64,000 nt of DNA from Massilia sp. erpn (lineage in GTDB: Bacteria > Pseudomonadota > Gammaproteobacteria > Burkholderiales > Burkholderiaceae_D). The stretch is taken from positions 5,022,001-5,086,000 of the forward strand of contig NZ_CP053748.1 of the NCBI RefSeq assembly GCF_024400215.1, in the 5' to 3' direction. The first letter of the stretch is position 1. Each line of letters starts with the position of its first letter. A program made the position numbers and the translations under genes. The notes beneath the pieces are model-generated. The model had not been told where the DNA came from. It searched no databases and worked only from the letters and a program-made list of their open reading frames with translations. Below, piece by piece: positions 26,621 to 38,179 of the stretch.

Positions 26621-29464
26621 ATGGAAAGCGCGATACAGCAAACGGCACTCGATGTACAGGCCACCCTGGCCGGCAAGCAGGTTTTCCTGACCGGCGCCAC
26701 CGGCTTTCTCGCCAAGGTCGTGCTGGAAAAGCTGATACGCACCGTACCCGACATCGGTGGCATCACCCTGCTGGTACGCGCCGGCCGCGACGACACGGGC
26801 GCGCGCGCCCGCTTCCAGCTGGAGATCGCCACCTCCTCGGTATTCGACAAGCTGCGCGCCGAGCGCCCGCATTTCCTGGAGGCCTTCTTCGCCGAGAAGA
26901 TCCACTGCATCACGGGCGAAATCACGGAACCGGCCTTCGGTCTGCCGCTGGCGCGTTTTGCCGAGCTGGCGCGCAATACCGACCTGATTATCAACGCCGC
27001 CGCCAGCGTGAACTTCCGCGAGGCGCTGGACGAAGCCCTGGCCATCAACTCCCACAGCGTGCAGAACGTGGCGGCGCTGGCGCGTACGGCCAACGCGCCG
27101 CTGGTGCAGGTCTCGACCTGCTACGTAAACGGCTTTAACAAAGGCGAGATGCACGAAGAGATGGTGCACCCGGCGCGCGCCACCATCGCGCGCCACCGCC
27201 ACGGGCACTACGACCTGAGCGGCCTGCTGGCCCATCTGCAGCGCCGCATCGACCAGGTACGCAAGAATGTCAGCGAGCCGGCCGAGCTGGCACGCCGGCT
27301 GACCGCCATCGGCATCGAAGAAGCCAATTACTTCGGCTGGAACGATACCTATACCTTTACCAAGTGGATGGGTGAGCAGTTGGCCGCCGAAGCCATGCAC
27401 GGCCGCGCGCTGAGCATCGTGCGGCCCTCCATCATCGAAAGCACCTTGCAGGAACCCGCCGCCGGCTGGATCGAGGGCGTGAAGGTGGCCGATGCCATCA
27501 TCCTCGCCTATGCACGCGGCAAGACCAGCTTCTTTCCCGCCAAGCCGGAGGAAATCGTCGACATCATTCCGGCCGATCTGGTGGCCAACAGCATCGTGCT
27601 GGCCGGTGTGGAGGCGCTCAACGACGCGCCCGCCCATCGCATTTACCAGGCCTGCTCGGGTTCGGGCAATCCGGTCTGCCTGGGCCAGGTGATCGAGCTG
27701 ATACAGAATGAATCGCGGCGCAATTGGCGCAATTACGAGCGCCTGTTCTTCAAGGCGCCACGCCATCGCTTCCGGGTGGTGGGCCGGCCCACCTTCCTGC
27801 TGATGCTGCGCGCCATGGCGGCTGGACTGGCCCTGCGCAGCGGCCTGCGCCAACTGCTCGGCCTGGGCGAATCGCCCGCGCTGGAAGCGCTGCGCACCAC
27901 GCAGACCCTGGCCCAGACCTTTTCCTTCTACACCGCGCCGCAGTACCGCTTCCACAACGACGGCCTACTGGCGCTGGCGCAGCGCTTCAGCGCCCGGGAT
28001 GAACTGGACTTTCCGGTCGATCCGCGCCTGATCGACTGGCGCGATTACCTGTGCCGCATCCATATGGGTGGCTTGAACCGCTACGCCCTGCGCGCCCGTC
28101 CCGCCGGCCAGCGCCCGCCGCCGGGCGAAAAGCACGCGATGACGCGGCGCGACTATGCCTGGCACCGCATGGATACGGAAAAGAACCTGATGGTCATCAA
28201 CAGCATCCTGCTGTTTGAAGGCCCGGTCGATATGCAGCGCCTGACCGCCACCATTGCTTACCGCCTGCCCAACTACCCGCGCTTTACGCAGAAAGTGAAA
28301 CGTCGCCTGGGCTTGCCGCAATGGGTGGAGGACGAGCATTTCGACATCCACCAGCATATCCGCCTGGAGCGCCTGGAAAAAGAGGTCAGCCTGGCCGAGC
28401 TGCAAAGCCGTATGACCGAACTGGCACACCAGCCGCTGGCGGAAGACCGCCCACAATGGCATATGACCGTGATCGACAAGGCCGGCGGCGGCCATGCCAT
28501 CGTCTTCCGCGTCCACCATTGCATCACCGACGGCCTGGGGCTGGTGCACGTACTGAACCACCTGACCGACGACAATGGCCTGCATGGCCAGACCCCGTCC
28601 CTGGCCGGTCACCCGCACCGTGCACTGGAGGCCGAAGGCGCATATGCCTCCACGCCGGCGCGCGCCAAATCAAGCCTGAAGATCGCTGCCCATATCGGCC
28701 GCCTCGGCATGCTCTGGCCCGATCTGCGCACCCGCCTCAAGGCTCCGCTCAGCGGCCAGAAACAGCTGGTCTGGCTGCCGCCGCTGGATCTGCAGAAAGT
28801 GCGCGTCGCCTCCAAGCGCATGGGCGCCACGCTGAACGATATCTGGGTGGCCGCTGTTTCCGGCGCACTGCGCCAGTATCTGCAGGAACGCGGCCAGGAT
28901 GCCGACAGCCGCGCCCTGCGCGCTGCCGTCACCTTCAATCTGCGCGAGAAGGCCAATGCCTTCCAGTTGGGGAACGAATTCGGCCTGGTCGCGGTCGACC
29001 TGCCCACCGATCTGGACGATCCTTGCGAACGCCTGCGACGTTCCAGCGCGCGCATGACGGCCATCAAGCGCTCGCACCAGCCGCGCGCCACCATGGCCTT
29101 CCTTTCATTGGCGGGCTGCCTGCCGACCGCCTTGCAGCACTTCGCCCTGAATCTGTTCACTTCCAAGGGTTCGGTGGTGCTGACCAATATCGAAGGGCCG
29201 GGCAGCCGGCGCTATCTGGCCGGCTCGCGCATGACCGACCTGATTTGCTGGGTGCCGCAGGCGGGGCGCATCGGCGTGGGTCTGGCCTTCATCTCCTATG
29301 CCGGCCAAATCCAGCTGGCCCTGTTCGTCGACACCCATCTGGTGCCCGATCCAGAGCGTCTGATGGAGCTGGTCCAGCAGGCCTTCGCCGAACTGGAGCT
29401 GGCGACGCGCGATGTGGCGGACGAGGTGGAAAGCATCGCCACGCCGCTGGCACCGGCAGCCTAA
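26621..29464 (+). CDS. Fatty acyl-CoA reductase / wax ester synthase fusion
   Basis: A 947-residue two-enzyme chain. Residues about 20-400 are a fatty acyl-CoA reductase of the male-sterility / NAD-binding-4 type: a Rossmann TGATGFLAK at the start and the catalytic YxxxK as Y244-TFT-K248. It should reduce acyl-CoA to alcohol with NADPH. From about 505 the sequence begins again like a WS/DGAT acyltransferase (MTRRDYAWHRMDTEKNLMV) and carries the active-site motif H632-H633-CIT-D637-G638, then NIEGPGSRRYLAG near the end. That half would join the alcohol to a second acyl-CoA to give a wax ester, so one polypeptide could do both steps. In well-studied bacteria these are separate genes. No frameshift or stop is seen at the junction. 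Confidence 0.9.
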   Translation: MESAIQQTALDVQATLAGKQVFLTGATGFLAKVVLEKLIRTVPDIGGITLLVRAGRDDTGARARFQLEIATSSVFDKLRAERPHFLEAFFAEKIHCITGEITEPAFGLPLARFAELARNTDLIINAAASVNFREALDEALAINSHSVQNVAALARTANAPLVQVSTCYVNGFNKGEMHEEMVHPARATIARHRHGHYDLSGLLAHLQRRIDQVRKNVSEPAELARRLTAIGIEEANYFGWNDTYTFTKWMGEQLAAEAMHGRALSIVRPSIIESTLQEPAAGWIEGVKVADAIILAYARGKTSFFPAKPEEIVDIIPADLVANSIVLAGVEALNDAPAHRIYQACSGSGNPVCLGQVIELIQNESRRNWRNYERLFFKAPRHRFRVVGRPTFLLMLRAMAAGLALRSGLRQLLGLGESPALEALRTTQTLAQTFSFYTAPQYRFHNDGLLALAQRFSARDELDFPVDPRLIDWRDYLCRIHMGGLNRYALRARPAGQRPPPGEKHAMTRRDYAWHRMDTEKNLMVINSILLFEGPVDMQRLTATIAYRLPNYPRFTQKVKRRLGLPQWVEDEHFDIHQHIRLERLEKEVSLAELQSRMTELAHQPLAEDRPQWHMTVIDKAGGGHAIVFRVHHCITDGLGLVHVLNHLTDDNGLHGQTPSLAGHPHRALEAEGAYASTPARAKSSLKIAAHIGRLGMLWPDLRTRLKAPLSGQKQLVWLPPLDLQKVRVASKRMGATLNDIWVAAVSGALRQYLQERGQDADSRALRAAVTFNLREKANAFQLGNEFGLVAVDLPTDLDDPCERLRRSSARMTAIKRSHQPRATMAFLSLAGCLPTALQHFALNLFTSKGSVVLTNIEGPGSRRYLAGSRMTDLICWVPQAGRIGVGLAFISYAGQIQLALFVDTHLVPDPERLMELVQQAFAELELATRDVADEVESIATPLAPAA

Positions 29465-29599: not shown

Positions 29600-30187
29600 G
29601 TGTCCACATTGCGCTCTGCCGATCCGCAGCAACTCCGTTCATGGCTGTTCGCCTCCGCCAGCCACGACGCCCTCGCCTTCCGTTCGCTGTATGACGCCAC
29701 CGCACCGAAACTGTTTGGCTTCGCCTTGCGTATATTGCGTAAGCGGGAGCTGGCCGAAGAAGCCTTGCAGGATAGTTTCATCACAATCTGGCATGCGGCG
29801 GGCAGCTACCAGTCCCACCTTTCCGCGCCGATGACGTGGATGTCCACCATCGTGCGCAACAAGGCGCTGGACATTCTGCGCCGCCTGGACGATGCAGTGG
29901 AGATCGACGCCAACCTGTTCGATAGCGAGGTGATGCAAGCCATGCAGGACCAGGATGACACGCCCGACGACGCGCTTGAGCTGAGCAATGCCGCGCGCAG
30001 CCTGGCCCATTGCCTCTCCACGCTGGAAGCGCACCAGCGCCAGGCCATAGGCATGGCCTTCCTCCACGAACTGTCGCACAGCGAAGTGGCGCTGCAACTG
30101 ACCCTGCCGATCGGTACCGTCAAGACCTGGATCAGGCGCGGGCTGGAGAAACTGAAGGTCTGCCTGGCCCGCCGGGAACTACCATGA
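29600..30187 (+). CDS. ECF-type RNA polymerase sigma factor
   Basis: A 195-residue sigma-70 family factor with region 2 (FALRILRKRELAEEALQDSF, then TWMSTIVRNKALDILRR) and region 4 (HELSHSEVALQLTLPIGTVK) and no regions 1 or 3, hence the ECF class. The start is a GTG. Its stop overlaps the start of the anti-sigma gene (ATGA). The pair resembles SigK/RskA. It would redirect RNA polymerase after an envelope signal; the convergent TonB/DUF4331 operon is a possible target, which is inference from position. Confidence 0.9.
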   Translation: MSTLRSADPQQLRSWLFASASHDALAFRSLYDATAPKLFGFALRILRKRELAEEALQDSFITIWHAAGSYQSHLSAPMTWMSTIVRNKALDILRRLDDAVEIDANLFDSEVMQAMQDQDDTPDDALELSNAARSLAHCLSTLEAHQRQAIGMAFLHELSHSEVALQLTLPIGTVKTWIRRGLEKLKVCLARRELP

Positions 30188-30888
30188 ATATCCGCCACAA
30201 CGAAACCCTGCGCGAACGCCTGGCAGCCGAATATGTGCTCGGCTCCTTGCGCGGCGGCGCGCGCCGTCGCCTGGAAAGCTGGATGCATGAGGATGCAGCC
30301 TTGCGCCGCAGCGTGGCCGAATGGCAGGACAGGCTGATGCCGATCAGCGAGCTCGCCGCTCCTGCAACGCCAAGGCCTCAGGTCTGGCAAGCCATAGAGG
30401 ACCGTTTGCAACTGGCGCACCCCGTCAAACCATGGCAATTCTGGCGCCGCGACCGAACCGCCATGTGGCGCACCCTCAGCCTAGCCTCCGGCACGCTGGC
30501 GGCAGTGCTGGCGCTTCTTCTGCTCATCGGACAGCCCGAGCCGGCGCGTATCGACCATATCGCCACCCTCAGCGACGATAAGGCGCAAACGGTGCTGCTG
30601 CTGACAGGCGACAGCCGCCGCCGCACCATGGATGTGCGCGTGGTCAGCCAGCTTTCCATCGCCAGCGACAAGACCTTGCAGCTCTGGGCTGTGCCGCGCC
30701 AAGGCGCGCCTCGCTCTCTTGGTATTTTGCCGGACAACCGCAGCGCCAGACTGGAACTGAACGAGCGCGCCACGGGCAGCGACGTCACCCTGCTCGCCAT
30801 CAGTCTTGAACCCAAGGGCGGCTCGCCCGACCCGAACGGACCGACCGGGCCGATTCTATACAAAGGACAGTGGCTGCGGCTGTTGTAG
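30184..30888 (+). CDS. Membrane anti-sigma factor (RskA-like)
   Basis: A 234-residue single-pass membrane protein that should hold the ECF sigma factor inactive. An N-terminal cytoplasmic anti-sigma segment (LAAEYVLGSLRGGARRRLESW) is followed by one membrane helix at about 97-115 and a periplasmic RskA-type domain (KTLQLWAVPRQGAPRSLGIL). It overlaps the sigma gene by four bases. The 11-base gap to the convergent TonB receptor gene leaves no room for separate terminators. Confidence 0.88.
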   Translation: MNIRHNETLRERLAAEYVLGSLRGGARRRLESWMHEDAALRRSVAEWQDRLMPISELAAPATPRPQVWQAIEDRLQLAHPVKPWQFWRRDRTAMWRTLSLASGTLAAVLALLLLIGQPEPARIDHIATLSDDKAQTVLLLTGDSRRRTMDVRVVSQLSIASDKTLQLWAVPRQGAPRSLGILPDNRSARLELNERATGSDVTLLAISLEPKGGSPDPNGPTGPILYKGQWLRLL

Positions 30889-30898
30889 CCGACCTGCC

Positions 30899-32920
30899 TC
30901 AAAAGCGGCGCGTCAGCGTCAGCCGGAAGGAACGCGGTTCGACCGGATGGAAGTGGATATCGCCCACGCCTTCGGCCACCTCACCGGGAAGGCGCGATTG
31001 GTAAAAATAATCGATGTCGCTGGCACGCTTATTGAACATATTGAAGACATCGAAGGACAGACTGGTGCGGCTGTCAATGCGCCAGGCAAGGCGGGCGCTG
31101 GCCAGCGTAGTGGCTGCCGAACGCACGCTATTGTCCTCCGTCAGAGGACGCGGGCCAAAGTGGCGCAGATTGAAGCTGCCCCGCCAGCCATCCCTGCCGT
31201 CCAATGTGACGCCAAAGGACGCTACCCGATTGACAGCGCCTGGAACGAAGCTGGCCGCGCTATCGCCTTCCGTGTAGCGGGCGCGCGAAGCGGCCAGGTC
31301 CAGGTCAAATTGCAGCCAGGGTGCAGCGATGTAATGATTATTCCATTCGATGCCTTGGCGACGGCTGCGGCGGCTAGCTTCGGTCTGTCCTGCATCGCCG
31401 AGATAGACCAGCTCCGAGCTTAAATCGAGGCGCCACAGTGCCAGCGAGCTTTGCAAGCCAGGCAGCAGCTCGCTGCGGGCGCCCAGTTCCATACCTCGCG
31501 TTCCGGCCAGCGCCGCCACCTTGCCCCCCGCCCCGCCAGCGGCCGCACCGATTACACCACGCGCATCGTTGCTATGAAAGCCGTATCCATAATTAAGGAA
31601 AAATTCGGTCTTCCTCCACGGCCCAAAGATCAGCGACAGCTTGGGCGAGACCTTGGAGGCGTCATCTTGCGCGCCATTGACATTGAAACGGTAACGGTCA
31701 TAGCGCAGGCCGGCGACGCTGCGCAGCGACGGCAGCAGTTGTGCGCTGTTCTCGTAGTAGAAGCCCGCGCTGGCTTCGCCCACACTGTCCTGGCGCAGCA
31801 CCGCCGTACGCTGCCGCATCACGCTTTCGTACAGACCAATGGGCGCAATGCGGTCGTAGCGCAGTTGCACTCCGGCGCGTTGACGCATTTCGACGCTTCC
31901 CACGGTATCTTGCCACGCCACGCTGGCATTCGTCCCGGTTGTGGTGCGTCTTTCGCTTTGGGCAAACTGGTCGCCCACAGCGGGATGGGCCAACGCATAG
32001 CTGAAATTGCTGAACAGATCCAGGCTGGAGCGGATCACATACCCTTCCACCTCCACCAAGCGTTCGCCGCTGCGCTTGCGCATGGCGTAGGAAAGACTGT
32101 AGCGCGAGCTGACACCACCGTCGCTGGCGTCGATGCTGCCGAAGCGGCCGATCCGGCCCGACTCCACGGCGCGCAGCGGAATCTGGTCGCTTGCATTCCA
32201 GCGGTTACGGTAAGCCATGGCGGTCAAGCTGAAGCCGTCGTCGCGGCCACCCTGGCTATAGCGCAGCATGGCGCTGTACTTGCGCGCTCTTTCCGGCGTC
32301 TCCCACGGCCCATCGTTGCGGCCCAGTTCCAGACCATACAGCAGCATTCCATCGGCGGCAGGCAAGGAATCCGCAAGCAGCAGGCGGCGATAGCCAAAAC
32401 TGCCGGCCGACACATTGCCACTGCCCTGTTCCAACTTCGACGTAAGCCGAATATGCGCCGCGCCGGCCGAAGAAAAATCGCCTTCGTCGGCAAAATATGG
32501 TCCTTTGCGATAATCGATCCGCTGCACCAGCTCGGGAATCAGGAAGTTCAGATCCGAGTATCCCTGGCCGTGCGCATGGGAGCGCATATTGACCGGCATG
32601 CCGTCCACATAGGTAGCGAAGTCAGTACCATGGTCCAGATTGAAACCGCGCAGGAAATACTGGTTCGCCTTGCCGTCGCCGCTATGCTGGGTAACGATCA
32701 TGCCCGGCACGAACTCCAGCAGTTCGCCGGTACGCAAGGCCGGGCGGTTTTCGAGCAGCGAGGCACGCACCGAACCTTCGCTGGCCGCGTCCGAACTGCC
32801 GATGGACTGGTTATAGTGGCCCACCACCTGCACGACCAGCGGTGTTTCATCGGCGCGCGCTGCGCCGATGCAGACACTTGCTGCCGCCACGCCACAGGCG
32901 CGAAGGACGGAAGGATTCAT
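30899..32920 (-). CDS. TonB-dependent outer-membrane receptor
   Basis: A receptor barrel of about 673 residues for energy-driven uptake. The ATG at 32920 has a GAGG ribosome site; a GTG six bases up is possible. A signal peptide ends near ARADE. A TonB-box-like PLVVQVVG follows, then the plug (FVPGMIVTQHSGDGKANQYF, and YVDGMPVNMRSHAHGQGY) and a beta barrel ending in RRF, with a terminal aromatic residue as usual. It is the last gene of the DUF4331 operon, 9 bases after HupE. The substrate is unknown; no siderophore synthesis genes are beside it. Confidence 0.9.
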   Translation of the reverse strand: MNPSVLRACGVAAASVCIGAARADETPLVVQVVGHYNQSIGSSDAASEGSVRASLLENRPALRTGELLEFVPGMIVTQHSGDGKANQYFLRGFNLDHGTDFATYVDGMPVNMRSHAHGQGYSDLNFLIPELVQRIDYRKGPYFADEGDFSSAGAAHIRLTSKLEQGSGNVSAGSFGYRRLLLADSLPAADGMLLYGLELGRNDGPWETPERARKYSAMLRYSQGGRDDGFSLTAMAYRNRWNASDQIPLRAVESGRIGRFGSIDASDGGVSSRYSLSYAMRKRSGERLVEVEGYVIRSSLDLFSNFSYALAHPAVGDQFAQSERRTTTGTNASVAWQDTVGSVEMRQRAGVQLRYDRIAPIGLYESVMRQRTAVLRQDSVGEASAGFYYENSAQLLPSLRSVAGLRYDRYRFNVNGAQDDASKVSPKLSLIFGPWRKTEFFLNYGYGFHSNDARGVIGAAAGGAGGKVAALAGTRGMELGARSELLPGLQSSLALWRLDLSSELVYLGDAGQTEASRRSRRQGIEWNNHYIAAPWLQFDLDLAASRARYTEGDSAASFVPGAVNRVASFGVTLDGRDGWRGSFNLRHFGPRPLTEDNSVRSAATTLASARLAWRIDSRTSLSFDVFNMFNKRASDIDYFYQSRLPGEVAEGVGDIHFHPVEPRSFRLTLTRRF

Positions 32921-32929
32921 GGGCACACC

Positions 32930-34099
32930 TCAGATTCCGGTCAGTTTCATATCCAGGGCGCGTTCCAGCAACCAGATGCCGGCCAGCAGCGCGATGGCGG
33001 CGGAGCCGCCTTGTAGCACCGTGCGCCGATAGAACCAGGTGGCGCGCAAGGCATACGCCAATGGCAGGAAGACGGCAACAATTGCCAGCTGTCCCAGTTC
33101 CACGCCCAGGTTGAAGCCGGCCAGAGATAACAGCATGGCTCCTGCCGGCAGCCCCAGCCCCGCCAGAACGCTGGCAAAGCCAAAACCGTGGATCACGCCA
33201 AAGCCGAAAGCGGCCACCCAGCGCTTGCGCAGCATGAAGGGAATCAGATTGTTCACCGCCGCCACAATCACCGACGCGGCAATCGCCGCCTCCACCAGGC
33301 GCGATGGCAGGGACACCAGCTCCAGTGCGGCAAGGCTGAGCGTCAGCGAATGCGCCAGGGTGAAGGCCGTTACCACCTTGCAGACCTCGATGGCGGCGGC
33401 GCGCAGGCTGCCGGCCTGACGCCAGCCATGGCCGCTCCGCACCAGCACGGCGGGCAGCAGCAGCGAAATCAGGAATAGAATATGGTCGAATCCCGCCCAG
33501 ATATGCTGAACGCCCAGCGCCATATATTCGAAAAACCCGCGCCGGCGCGACGTGGTGCCGCCGTCCAGGTACAGCACCTGTTGCGGGTGGTCGGCGCCTA
33601 AAATGGCGGTCTGCACGTTTGCGCCCTGCTGGATACGTAACAGGCCTTTGTGCTGCGCATCGGTATCGGCAAACAGGCGGTAAGCCACTGTCAGCCGCTC
33701 CGGCGCCGTGGCGCATTCGCCATGAAAGCGCAACACGGCGTATGCGCCATCGGTATGGTGATCGATCAATTGTCCGACAACGCTGACCGTGCACAGGCCG
33801 CCGCCCGGCGCCATATTGGCAGGCTGCGCACCGCCGGCGATAGTCAGCCGGGAAAACGCGTATGCCGCAATCCGGCCATGCTGGCTGCGCACCTCGCCCC
33901 AGGTCAGGCGGCCATCGCCATCGCTATCCAGGCCAAGGGCGAAATCCAGATCGCGCAAGGCGATATCCCATTGCCCCTCGATCTGCCGCCCTGCCACCTC
34001 AAGGCTCAAATAACTGTCGCTGGGCTTATGGGCGAAGGCGGCGGACATCGGCAGCAGCAGGAACGATAGCAACAGCATGCATTGCAGGCGGCGCATCAT
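32930..34099 (-). CDS. HupE/UreJ-type membrane protein with EF-hand-like loop
   Basis: A 389-residue protein. A signal peptide ends at AFAHK, then a periplasmic domain of about 170 residues, then about seven membrane helices from near residue 190 (ALGVQHIWAGFDHILFLISL, and GFGVIHGFGFASVL). The C-terminal half matches HupE/UreJ proteins, whose relatives are linked to nickel or cobalt handling. The periplasmic part has a textbook EF-hand loop, D58-x-D60-x-D62-G...E69, suggesting calcium binding. It overlaps the TPR gene upstream by four bases and is followed by the TonB receptor. Metal transport is possible, but the family's biochemistry is thin. Confidence 0.85.
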   Translation of the reverse strand: MMRRLQCMLLLSFLLLPMSAAFAHKPSDSYLSLEVAGRQIEGQWDIALRDLDFALGLDSDGDGRLTWGEVRSQHGRIAAYAFSRLTIAGGAQPANMAPGGGLCTVSVVGQLIDHHTDGAYAVLRFHGECATAPERLTVAYRLFADTDAQHKGLLRIQQGANVQTAILGADHPQQVLYLDGGTTSRRRGFFEYMALGVQHIWAGFDHILFLISLLLPAVLVRSGHGWRQAGSLRAAAIEVCKVVTAFTLAHSLTLSLAALELVSLPSRLVEAAIAASVIVAAVNNLIPFMLRKRWVAAFGFGVIHGFGFASVLAGLGLPAGAMLLSLAGFNLGVELGQLAIVAVFLPLAYALRATWFYRRTVLQGGSAAIALLAGIWLLERALDMKLTGI

Positions 34100-35295
34100 G
34101 ATGCCCTCCGAATCCGGGCTTCGAGCTTGCCCAGCAGTGCGGCAAGCGCGCGGTCTTCCATTCCCGCCGTCCTGATCCAGCGCGAGGCGGGGACGGCGGC
34201 CTGCGGCTCATTCGCGGCCAATGCCGCTTCAAGCAGGATGCGGGCATCTGCTGCCTCCTTCTGCACCTGCCAGTTTGCCAGCGCCAGGCGCAGGGCTGTC
34301 TTGCTGTCACCGCGCAGATGCAAGGCGTAGCGCGCCTCTTCCCGCCGATGAACCGTGTCGCCGCGCATGGCAGCCGCCTGAAAGCGCGCCTGCAATTCAT
34401 TGCCGGCGGCGGCCAGCGCGGCCGCGTCCTTGCCGGATTGACGCAGCGCCAGCGCATAACGCAGCAGCAGCGCATCGGCGCGGCCATGCGTGCGTAACAG
34501 GCCGACAACCTCGTCCGCGCGATTCTGATCGAGCAGAAAATCGGCATATGCGCCCAGCAGATAACCGTCGCGCGGGTCCGCCGCCAGCGCGCTGCGGAAG
34601 CTTTGCTCCGCAACAGCGGCATCGCCACGCCGCGCCGCCATTTCGGCCAGCAGGGTTTGCGCCCAGACACGCAACCCGGCAGCTTCGTCCGGATAGCGCG
34701 CCAATACTGTCCGCAGCAGTTCCTGACTTTGCGCCAGATTCCCGCTTAAACCTGCGGCGTTGGCGATGCAGGCGGCGCTGACCAGGGGGCTGGCCAGCAG
34801 CGACAATCTGGCGCAGGCGGCCTTGGCCTCGGCGTACCGGCCTTGCGCGACATGCACGGTGGCGCGGGTCAGCCAGGCCTGCGCATCGCCCGGGTTCTGC
34901 TTCGTCAGCGCGGCCAGGTCGGCCTGGGCTTCGTCGAAGCGGTGGCTATTCTGCAGCAGCGTGGCACGCAGCAGTCGCACTTCGGCCGGGGGCGAGGCCT
35001 CGTTCCACCAGGGTTGCAGTACCGCCTGCGCATGGCCGAAGTAACGCGGATCGTTTTCGCGCCTCCCGGCTTCGATATATCGGCGCGCCAATGCCGTGGC
35101 AAGCTGCAGCCGATGCGGTGCGGCACTCAGCGCGGCCCGCATGCGCCGCAGCTCCTGTGTCTGCCCATCGGCCTGGCGCGGCAGGGTCTCCAGCACTTCG
35201 GCATCGTCGCGCGGTATGCGGGCGCCGGCGAGCGCCCACGCAGGCCAGGCCAGACACGCCAGCAAGGATATAGCAGGGATGACAAGGACTTTCAT
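34096..35295 (-). CDS. Exported tetratricopeptide-repeat protein
   Basis: A 399-residue protein with a signal peptide (MKVLVIPAISLLACLAWP) and repeated helical TPR-like units (for example DEAQADLAALTKQNPGDAQA, then GRYAEAKAACARL). It is probably periplasmic and a protein-binding scaffold. An AAGGAG ribosome site precedes it. It overlaps HupE by the ATGA four-base junction and lies third in the DUF4331 operon. No catalytic motif is seen. Confidence 0.82.
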   Translation of the reverse strand: MKVLVIPAISLLACLAWPAWALAGARIPRDDAEVLETLPRQADGQTQELRRMRAALSAAPHRLQLATALARRYIEAGRRENDPRYFGHAQAVLQPWWNEASPPAEVRLLRATLLQNSHRFDEAQADLAALTKQNPGDAQAWLTRATVHVAQGRYAEAKAACARLSLLASPLVSAACIANAAGLSGNLAQSQELLRTVLARYPDEAAGLRVWAQTLLAEMAARRGDAAVAEQSFRSALAADPRDGYLLGAYADFLLDQNRADEVVGLLRTHGRADALLLRYALALRQSGKDAAALAAAGNELQARFQAAAMRGDTVHRREEARYALHLRGDSKTALRLALANWQVQKEAADARILLEAALAANEPQAAVPASRWIRTAGMEDRALAALLGKLEARIRRAS

Positions 35296-35361
35296 GATTC
35301 CGCTCTCCTTGAATACGGGCGCCAGGGGCAGCAGGACCAGCCACCCCTGGCACCGGCCGCC

Positions 35362-35604
35362 TCACAGCGGCGCCGGCTCCGAATCTTCCGGCATGGTGGC
35401 GGCCAGCGTATCCAGCTCGGTCGGCTCGCTTTCCTCGCTGCTCATGCCGGCCTTGGCCTGTACTGCCGACAGGAAGACATCGGCCGCAGTGGCAGGCGGC
35501 GGCGCGAGGGGATCGGGCGGCGAGGCTACGTCGCCATAGCCACCGTTTCCACCGCCGCCGCAAGCACTCAGCAGCAAGGCAGCGCTCAGGATCAGTCGTC
35601 TCAT
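35362..35604 (-). CDS. Small lipoprotein of the DUF4331 operon
   Basis: An 80-residue protein with lipobox LSAC followed by a Gly-rich spacer, a Pro/Ala-rich stretch and an acidic Glu/Ser-rich tail. A GGAGAAG ribosome site supports the start. It lies 10 bases after DUF4331 and 66 bases before the TPR gene. I do not recognise a family. By position it may anchor or link the complex in the envelope. Confidence 0.7.
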   Translation of the reverse strand: MRRLILSAALLLSACGGGGNGGYGDVASPPDPLAPPPATAADVFLSAVQAKAGMSSEESEPTELDTLAATMPEDSEPAPL

Positions 35605-35614
35605 GATCTTCTCC

Positions 35615-37117
35615 TTATTGCTGGGGTGAGCCGGGAATCGGCGTTTTCAGATAAGGGAAGGACGCGGTAAAGAAGCTGTCGTCCAGATACGCGCCATCGG
35701 TAAAGCGGATGGCGCCGGCCGGTGCGTCGGCCGGCGTGCAGCCCAGGTTCAGGGTACACAGCTTGCCCATGGCGACACGCAGCTCGATGTCGACTACATC
35801 GTCGCCAGGCCGGCGGCCGTTGGGAAAGCCCGCGTTGTCGCCATCGATCACGCCCAGGCGCTTCTGCGCACCCATCGCCACCGGCGCGATTGCCGTGTTC
35901 AGGCGCAGCATCTCGGACGCTTTCACGTTCGCCGGCTGGTTCAAGCCTTTCACCCCGGTGAGGAAGGTCGCCACCAGATCGTTGCGCGGGAAGTTGGTGG
36001 GTGCCTTGGCGCCGGCATTGCCGAACAAGACCTCGACCAGGGCCGGCAGCGTGGGATTCGTCACATAGGTGGCGAACTGGCCATCGGCGGCAGGCTTGCT
36101 GTGATTGAAGCGGTCCTTGTCCTTCAAACCGATCACCAGCTCGTTCACCAGCGGCATGCCGAGGCGCGAGACCTGGGTCCAGGCGCCCCCCTCCTTCGAG
36201 GCGCCGACGGCGTCGCCGGGTACGGGGTTCAGCAACCGTCCCTGGCGCAGGCTGGCCGTGGTCCAGCCGCCGATCACGGGATCGGCCGAACCCGGCGCGG
36301 TCAGGCAGGCGGCGGCGACTTCCAGTGCGATGGTCGTGACATTCTTGTCGGCCAGATCGTCGCGCGCATTCTTCTCGGCGTTGGGCAGGAACTCCACCGC
36401 CGGCGCCTTGTAGTTGACGAGGTCAAACGTCTCGCCCAGGTTGACGGCGAAGGAATCCTTGCGCTGGCCGACGAACATGCGCCCCGGTGTTTCGCAGCCG
36501 GGAATCTTCACGCTGTAGATATGGCGTCCCGCATAGCCGGCATAATCGGGAATGGCCTTGTTGCCGATATTGTCCACCGGCTTATCGAACACCACGCTGC
36601 CGTTGCCTGCATTGCTGAGCGGCGCACGCGAACCGCCGCGCCGGTCCCCGCGCACTACGGTGACCGAATACGTTTCGCGCACATTCAGGCCGGGTGGATT
36701 CACATCGTTGATCGGGCCGCCGTTGATGACCAGCGGGATGGGCACTTTCTTGCCGCCCACCGTGAACTGCGCGTTCTTCACGGTATTCGTGAAGCGGAAC
36801 TGGAAACTGATGTCCTCCTTCGCATCGCCGTTGTTATCGATATGGATTTCATACAGTGCGTCCGGGTCGAGCTGGAAGTAATTCGGGCCGCCGTAGGCGT
36901 CCTGCAAAGGAATATAGTTCGCAATCAACGTCACGAACTTTTCGCGGCCAGGCTCGTAGCTGCGGAACATGTAAAAATCCGTGGCGTCTGCCTTGGGGAT
37001 GCGGGTAATGAAAGGCGCTTCGCGGTGGCTGGACGCCAAAACCGGCGCCGCCACCAGTCCAGCCAGCATGCCGGCCACCAGCGCGGCACGCAACGGGTAC
37101 TGCATGATATTTTCCAT
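35615..37117 (-). CDS. DUF4331 family exported protein
   Basis: A 500-residue secreted or periplasmic protein, first gene of the five-gene operon. A GGAGGA ribosome site lies just before the ATG at 37117. The signal peptide ends near VLASS, and the mature protein starts with the family hallmark SSHREAPFI, then DATDFYMFRSYEPG and YIPLQDAYGGPNYF. The repeated Asp-rich loops could bind metal. The function of DUF4331 is not established. A DUF4331, TPR, HupE, TonB order suggests a shared envelope or metal-related task. Confidence 0.88.
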   Translation of the reverse strand: MENIMQYPLRAALVAGMLAGLVAAPVLASSHREAPFITRIPKADATDFYMFRSYEPGREKFVTLIANYIPLQDAYGGPNYFQLDPDALYEIHIDNNGDAKEDISFQFRFTNTVKNAQFTVGGKKVPIPLVINGGPINDVNPPGLNVRETYSVTVVRGDRRGGSRAPLSNAGNGSVVFDKPVDNIGNKAIPDYAGYAGRHIYSVKIPGCETPGRMFVGQRKDSFAVNLGETFDLVNYKAPAVEFLPNAEKNARDDLADKNVTTIALEVAAACLTAPGSADPVIGGWTTASLRQGRLLNPVPGDAVGASKEGGAWTQVSRLGMPLVNELVIGLKDKDRFNHSKPAADGQFATYVTNPTLPALVEVLFGNAGAKAPTNFPRNDLVATFLTGVKGLNQPANVKASEMLRLNTAIAPVAMGAQKRLGVIDGDNAGFPNGRRPGDDVVDIELRVAMGKLCTLNLGCTPADAPAGAIRFTDGAYLDDSFFTASFPYLKTPIPGSPQQ

Positions 37118-37258
37118 CTGATCCTCCTGCTTGTTTGAACGGGAAGGTACTACCCTTCCTTATACGCAGCGGGGATACGGCTGGATTCAGAATTTTTTGT
37201 CACACAAACCATCTGTAACGCTGACGTTTTGGCAATACCTGCTTATAATCGCCAACAT

Positions 37259-38179
37259 ATGACTATCCGCACTCCACGCCTGAAACCCGCTCTGCTGGCC
37301 CTGTTTGCCGGCATGAGCTGTTCCATGGCCGCGGCGCAAACCATGCCCACCATCACCGTGGCGTGGCGCTTGAAACCGCCCTATCACTATGCGGAGAACG
37401 GCGAACTGAAAGGCCTGCTGCTGCTGCGCGCGCAAGCCATCTTTACCGAGGCAGGAATTGCAACCCGCTTCGTGAACGAACCGCAGCGGCGCATCTGGAA
37501 CAATCTGTCGCATGGCGAGCCGAATTACTGTTCGGTGAGCTGGTATCGTCTGCCGGAACGCGAGGCGGTGGCGCAGTTCAGCCAGCCCTTTCACATGGAC
37601 CAGACCCATATCGTGCTGACCGCAGCGCGCAACCTGGACGAGATCAAGGCACATGCCACCCTGCCCGAATTGCTGGCCAATAAGGAGCTGACGCTGGGGG
37701 TGATCGACGGCGTTTCCTATGGCCCGGAACTGGACGGCATGATGGCGCGCAGCGCCAACCAGATCATGCGGCGCACCGTGGATACGCCCTCAATGCTGCG
37801 CATGCTGGCCGCCGGCCGCGCCACCTATGTGATCGTGGACCGCGCCGACTGGACCTTCTTCAAGGAGCGCGATCCGCTGGCGCAGACGCTGGTCATGCTG
37901 GAATACCCCGATATGCCGGCCGGCCTGCCGCGCCACATCGTTTGCAGCACCAATGTGCCGGAGGGTTTGATGGAGAAATTGAACCGCGCCATCGCCAGCA
38001 CGCCCGGCACGCCCGGTCCATCCAGCGGTGCGGGAGCGCCGCGCAGAGGGCGCGGCGAAGGATTCAGGAATGGCCAGGGACGGCCGGTGCCGCCGTGGCG
38101 GACCTCGGCCGCCGAAAGGCAGCGAGGAAAAGAGCAGCGGGCGGGCTGCAGGGCGCAGCCCGCCACCCAGGTCGATTAG
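37259..38179 (+). CDS. Periplasmic substrate-binding protein (amino-acid type), odd C-terminus
   Basis: About 306 residues. The ATG at 37259 opens a signal peptide ending MAAAQ. Residues 25-250 look like a family 3 solute-binding protein ([20 protein letters not shown], and [19 protein letters not shown]). No transporter genes are adjacent, so it may feed a sensor instead. After about residue 251 the sequence becomes Pro/Gly/Arg-rich, reads through a strong hairpin and ends four bases into the convergent chemoreceptor gene. That tail does not look like the family and suggests a late frameshift or lost stop. Confidence 0.75.
38140..38164. terminator. Strong hairpin between convergent genes
   Basis: GGCGGGCTGC, a five-base loop AGGGC, and GCAGCCCGCC form a perfect 10-bp GC-rich stem. 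It lies 12 bases before the end of the chemoreceptor gene and inside the odd tail of the binding protein. No T-run follows on either strand, so termination is likely but not certain. Confidence 0.5.

Follow-up and report, generated by a model that had tools for sequence, protein, structure and literature searches.

A five-gene operon of Massilia sp. erpn, lying within a 64,000-nucleotide stretch (contig NZ_CP053748.1, positions 5,022,001 to 5,086,000; hereafter, the window), encodes a DUF4331 protein, a small lipoprotein, a tetratricopeptide repeat (TPR) protein, a HupE/UreJ-type permease with a periplasmic domain, and a TonB-dependent receptor, and converges with a gene pair for an extracytoplasmic function (ECF) sigma factor and its anti-sigma factor (Table 1). 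The locus raises the question of what such a set of exported and membrane proteins does: (i) whether the genes belong together and answer to the sigma factor; (ii) whether their products handle a metal; and (iii) if so, which metal, and in which direction. We regard the arrangement, whose components are known in part, as new and well supported, and the locus as a probable metal-capture operon. At a probability of roughly 55%, it is a trans-envelope system under ECF control, which captures a transition metal ion of the Cu(II)/Ni(II) type and probably imports it. A metal substrate is proposed because the HupE protein combines an Ang-1 fold with a predicted N-terminal histidine, because the DUF4331 protein has a predicted X-X-His terminus, and because metal genes lie near relatives of the TonB receptor.

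A preliminary description of this DNA had placed seven genes here, with operon spacings of 10, 66, -4 and 9 bases. Domain matches and reading of the sequence bear out all seven, with gaps of 10, 66, -4 and 3 bases, the last becoming 9 if the TonB gene begins at the ATG at 32920. The start of the anti-sigma gene overlaps the sigma stop codon, and 10 bases separate the end of this convergent pair from that of the TonB gene.

Linkage of the genes and their promoter

DUF4331 (PF14224) and HupE_UreJ_2 (PF13795) are each encoded once in the genome, a single contig of 6.15 Mb, and in the same operon; as this linkage is kept in relatives, the association lies above chance. A scan of species genomes confirmed at least 549 DUF4331 relatives. 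The best 80 of these, referred to as near loci, all contain a full-length DUF4331. A minimum flank of 3.5 kb upstream and 6.5 kb downstream is present in 67, and the other 13 were dropped. Since only the best 80 of at least 549 were used, the sample leans to close kin (the closest named loci are from Massilia sp. BJB1822 and Pseudoduganella violacea), and the counts refer to sequences rather than to independent events. Class and phylum searches supplied a distant set of 51 stretches, from which 16 were dropped for lack of a full-length DUF4331 and 10 of the remaining 35 for short flanks, leaving 25; L152, of the same family, was excluded. DUF4331 was detected in 81 of 195 genomes from the family, 31 of 369 from the class and 22 of 398 from the phylum, where some matches are weak only.

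TPR and HupE genes follow DUF4331 on its own strand, no more than 4.5 kb away, at 63 of the 67 near and 20 of the 25 distant loci, which leaves standing the preliminary idea of a joint system. The hidden Markov model (HMM) of the lipoprotein finds a match at all 67 near and at 5 of the 25 distant loci, and a lipobox-like cysteine is present in 88 of the 89 HMM matches of the fetched loci. Sigma genes were found at 35 near and 22 distant loci, anti-sigma genes at 35 and 17, and a TonB gene within 9 kb of DUF4331 at 29 and 2, respectively. The sigma pair is downstream and convergent, or upstream, depending on the genus, and the TonB gene may end the set, begin it, lie inside it or be on the opposite strand. 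That the linkage is shuffled yet lasting argues for a shared function. The proposal of a complete path across both membranes is supported in part: the genes are co-conserved, but the receptor is optional.

Two side observations concern these components. In Pseudoduganella violacea (L033:14175-14486), the operon's TonB gene is cut down to its two ends, the middle being gone. The small lipoprotein and its relatives, which belong to no known family, share a conserved acidic tail with P-E-D-x-E-P-like repeats.

Upstream of DUF4331, we identified a two-block motif, TG[A/C]ATCN-N15-17-CGTA, mostly in the form TGAATCC-N16-CGTATA. It is present in 91 of 116 upstream regions, with the 16-base spacer in 89 of the 91. 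In the window, the presumed -10 block, CGTA, is at 37166-37163. Among near loci, the window included, 77 of 81 have it, versus 6 of 922 other open reading frames (ORFs) of the same loci, used as a control; only 14 of 35 distant loci do, most of them being without this exact motif. It also precedes 12 of 29 TonB ORFs, and none of 94 HupE or 70 TPR ORFs.

The window sigma factor, with region 2 and region 4 domains and an adjacent RskA_C partner, contains Cys138 and Cys188, each kept in 58 of 67 rows. According to PMC7509140, SigK (groups ECF18 and ECF19) has Cys133 and Cys183, so that both systems place an ECF sigma factor beside an RskA_C anti-sigma factor and share a cysteine pair at a 50-residue spacing; they differ in their target, named there as the mpt83 cassette and here presumed to be the DUF4331 operon. 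The NCBIfam SigK model NF007228 is not reached (129.6 bits versus a cut-off of 226). The arrangement also resembles FecI-FecR-FecA surface signaling in that an ECF sigma factor, a membrane anti-sigma factor and a TonB receptor adjoin; however, the anti-sigma factor here is RskA_C rather than FecR, and the receptor, as judged by Pfam, is plug and barrel only, with no N-terminal signaling domain. We infer that the window sigma factor reads the operon promoter. Of the ECF control proposed earlier, the conserved ECF-type promoter at the operon, and often at the TonB gene, is borne out; its reach into distant loci is limited, and the role of this particular sigma factor is presumptive.

Putative metal-binding termini

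In the HupE protein, residue 24 (codon 34030-34028) is the predicted mature His1. This histidine occurs in 100 of 100 aligned rows, preceded by alanine in 99 and with a small residue at -3 in 100, and is predicted to come first after the signal peptide. In the predicted model, the periplasmic domain has an Ang-1 beta-sandwich fold and matches PDB 9GCE, with a sequence identity of only about 16% across the matched region; seven helices, one of them short, follow it, in agreement with the preliminary description. The EF-hand loop announced there, D58-x-D60-x-D62-G-x-L-x-x-x-E69 (residues 58-69; 33928-33893), is present and conserved: in the 100 rows, position 58 is D in 96, position 60 D/N in 97, position 62 D/N in 98 and position 69 E in 97.

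PDB 9GCE is RbAng-1a, a metal-binding Ang-1-HupE/UreJ-2 'anglerase' (PMC12537917), which was the only study retrieved in open-access papers from 2024 on under 'anglerase' or 'mono-histidine brace'. That paper cites the nickel transporter HupE and reports that both Cu(II) and Ni(II) stabilize RbAng-1a, that Co(II) destabilizes it slightly, and that its second copper ligand, Asn41, is not conserved. The earlier statement that the path has no described function is not fully supported, as this domain has a described metal-binding relative. As in RbAng-1a, the exported domain of the Massilia protein shares this fold, is predicted to begin with histidine and is joined to a PF13795 permease; as differences, the Massilia protein has a canonical EF-hand loop and is encoded in an operon with DUF4331, TPR and sigma genes (EF-hand, calcium and DUF4331 gave no hit in PMC12537917). 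By analogy, its periplasmic domain may bind Cu(II) or Ni(II).

The DUF4331 protein has the predicted mature N-terminus Ser29-Ser30-His31 (codons 37033-37025). A free X-X-His terminus constitutes an amino-terminal Cu(II)- and Ni(II)-binding (ATCUN) site, and the predicted terminus fits this definition. SSH occurs in 113 of 114 rows and ANH in one; 20 further rows match neither motif, most of them being counted in the full alignment, where 128 of the 130 rows with letters at that position have His31, and residue 30 varies among S, D, N and H. Alanine precedes the predicted cut in 126 of 129 rows. As a crude control, 165 other exported-looking ORFs had histidine at +1 in 6 cases and at +3 in 2. 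In 43 rows with identities reaching down to 33%, neither His31 nor the E-A-P after it varies, so that selection acts on more than the tripeptide. No paper on DUF4331 or PF14224 was found in the open-access literature, a search outside which most subscription papers lie. As a side observation, eight records (P0295, P0296, P0305, P0326, P0330, P0331, P0349, P0358) with a DUF4331 near that of L176 bear names of methanotrophs, organisms that need much copper.

DUF4331 in other phyla

Six actinomycete DUF4331 loci were examined of the nine records listed. Five have the order DUF4331-TPR-permease (Streptomycetaceae L231, L240 and L241; Embleya L242; Nonomuraea L243), with an intervening sortase gene in L231; in the sixth, from Miltoncostaea, DUF4331-TPR is present and a 5 kb flank gave no match to NicO. 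The actinomycete permease matches NicO (PF03824), over cut-off in all three tested, with a long His-rich loop and an EF-like loop; in the three examined, the exported domain begins HPLGNF directly after an alanine. Since a profile comparison of NicO and HupE proteins gave no homology, two distinct families seem to occupy the permease position. In Adhaeribacter (Bacteroidota), DUF4331-TPR adjoins a divergent TonB gene. The SSHREAP sequence is kept in the actinomycete and most other plasmid DUF4331 relatives examined.

A broader proposal is tentative, and we hold it with clearly less confidence than the reading of the Massilia operon itself: DUF4331 might form a novel class of exported proteins that capture metal and bear an ATCUN terminus. 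Together with a TPR protein and a permease tipped by His1, it would make up a module that occurs in two phyla or more, one permease having replaced the other (HupE_UreJ_2 in Pseudomonadota, NicO in Actinomycetota); a SigK-type sigma factor would be the metal-responsive switch in many proteobacteria.

On three Rhodobacterales plasmids (L234, L235, L239), DUF4331 and a small lipoprotein-like gene lie beside a type II secretion cluster, which hints at DUF4331 action on the cell surface; the cluster is possibly the DUF4331 exporter. A Streptomyces plasmid (L240:525-9465) carries two DUF4331 genes, a sortase gene and a fasciclin-domain gene near its NicO-type permease; in other bacteria, the targets of SigK include fasciclin proteins.

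Candidate metals and possible direction of transport

Among plasmid relatives of the receptor (50 records at E <= 1e-40), 15 neighborhoods were taken from the best 20, with flanks of 6-8 kb; five were unannotated and were tested by tblastn. Eight of the 15 (L206, L207, L208, L210, L211, L216, L221, L222; L208 and L222 are near-copies) carry a gene for NikR or for a HoxN-type nickel permease there, in some cases next to hydrogenase genes; among the remaining seven, L209 lies by cobalamin genes and L217 by a CopA-like ATPase. These nikR/HoxN-linked receptors (C. necator pHG1, A. carboxidovorans pHCG3 and others) share 42-48% identity with the window receptor over most of its length, whereas in DUF4331 loci the TonB gene is under the ECF-type promoter or inside the operon. 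In the Massilia genome, a 58% TonB paralog (L228:5957-10939, at about 3.45 Mb) follows cueR (TIGR02044) and a copper ATPase gene (TIGR01511), both over cut-off; the scanned neighbors of a 51% paralog include no metal gene except one for a CusB/HlyD-type membrane-fusion protein. A tree of 52 receptors, with several long branches, groups the Undibacterium operon receptors with nickel-linked ones of C. necator and Paraburkholderia, and the window receptor with other Oxalobacteraceae receptors and the cueR-linked paralog.

These elements suggest a mechanism. The SigK-type sigma factor, held by the RskA-type membrane anti-sigma factor, would turn on the operon from its dedicated promoter, and exported DUF4331, located at the surface or in the periplasm, would bind metal through its predicted free X-X-His terminus. 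Where a TonB receptor is encoded, it may carry the metal or a metal complex across the outer membrane, as the gene neighbors of its relatives suggest. The acidic lipoprotein and the TPR protein might, at a guess, hold or hand on the metal-bearing protein; and, by analogy with RbAng-1a (PMC12537917), the N-terminal histidine and Ang-1-like domain of HupE would receive the metal and pass it into the permease.

Several observations weigh against this reading. The TonB gene is often unlinked, and none of nikR, HoxN, cueR and copA was matched in the DUF4331 flanks searched, which weakens the metal argument from receptor neighbors. The three Rhodobacterales plasmids have DUF4331 with no TPR, HupE or TonB gene annotated in the flank. 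In the HupE model, residues 17-24, including His24, have a predicted local distance difference test (pLDDT) score below 50, and the position matching Asn41 of RbAng-1a is Arg64 by simple count, without superposition of that residue. A bare ATCUN site does not need the strictly kept E-A-P, and for DUF4331 no usable fold was obtained. Finally, the window genome gave no match to urease alpha, [NiFe] hydrogenase or NikR, which speaks against nickel.

Sequestration, detoxification or sensing is the alternative that survives best, although we consider it unlikely: DUF4331 and the Ang-1-like domain would bind excess metal in the envelope and the sigma factor would answer metal or oxidative stress, with no nutrient uptake. 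No efflux gene is a constant neighbor of the operon, and TonB receptors and HupE permeases carry substrates inward in characterized relatives. The copper efflux ATPase and cueR preceding the TonB paralog, the long His-rich loops of the actinomycete NicO proteins and the failure to find either of the two nickel enzymes searched for in the window genome agree with it, as does a HupE/UreJ-like gene of Sphingobium strongly up-regulated in nickel-rich medium (PMC5557971). Of the metal uptake or sensing suggested earlier, the metal part is backed by the HupE fold and histidine, the DUF4331 terminus and the TonB neighborhoods, and uptake rather than sequestration or sensing is what we infer.

Less probable still is a system that does not center on metal, with DUF4331 as a structural or enzymatic surface protein whose histidine would serve folding or export, and with HupE as a side component. 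The residues past His31, conserved as much as His31, the Rhodobacterales loci without HupE and the lack of a fold or solved relative for DUF4331 would suit such a protein; linkage with His1 permeases of two Pfam families in two phyla, and the near-constant X-X-His position right after the predicted cut, would not. Uptake of cobalt or a corrinoid for B12 synthesis is very improbable, since RbAng-1a is slightly destabilized by Co(II) and the receptor scores far below cut-off against B12-receptor models (TIGR01779, 29.7 versus 599.7), despite CobN in the window genome, the single receptor relative by cobalamin genes, a plug resembling BtuB in a PDB search, and the predicted cobalt branch of the HupE/UreJ family (PMC2667541).

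For the metal-capture system preferred here, copper and nickel are the candidates, with cobalt third. The Ang-1 preference and the cueR/copA-linked paralog point to copper; the HupE and NicO families and the nikR/HoxN neighbors of the receptor family point to nickel. So does co-occurrence with urease, found in 63 of the 81 family genomes with DUF4331 versus 54 of the 114 without it, counts uncorrected for kinship and from which five weak urease matches were dropped.

Outside the operon, the gene directly upstream of the sigma gene (26621-29464, + strand) encodes a 947-residue fusion of a fatty acyl reductase (NAD_binding_4, Sterile) and a wax ester synthase/diacylglycerol acyltransferase, 95% identical in Pseudoduganella violacea (L033). 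A family 3 solute-binding protein gene (37229-38179, + strand), divergent from the operon promoter, is retained only in L032 and L033 among the 80 loci.

Table 1. Features of the DUF4331 operon and adjacent sigma/anti-sigma pair (window positions)
Feature	Position	Strand	Basis
ECF sigma factor, SigK type, Cys138 + Cys188	29600..30187	+	PF04542, PF08281
RskA-type anti-sigma factor	30184..30888	+	PF10099 (RskA_C), 85 bits
TonB-dependent outer-membrane receptor	30899..32926	-	PF00593 + PF07715 over cut-off (plug + barrel)
Ang-1-like periplasmic domain + HupE_UreJ_2 permease	32930..34099	-	PF13795, 159.4 bits versus cut-off 24.5
Exported TPR protein	34096..35295	-	TPR_19 + TPR_16 over cut-off
Small lipoprotein, acidic P-E-D-x-E-P-like tail	35362..35604	-	no Pfam family
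DUF4331 protein, exported	35615..37117	-	PF14224, 514 bits
ECF-type operon promoter, TGAATCC-N16-CGTA	37163..37189	-	pattern search + reading of sequence

The analysis gives DUF4331, a widespread family that extends to Actinomycetota and Bacteroidota, its first testable function proposal, and assigns the recently described 'anglerase' permeases to a complete trans-envelope system that also has a receptor and its own regulator. It also provides a conserved target operon, and hence a possible signal, for the SigK-type sigma factors of proteobacteria.
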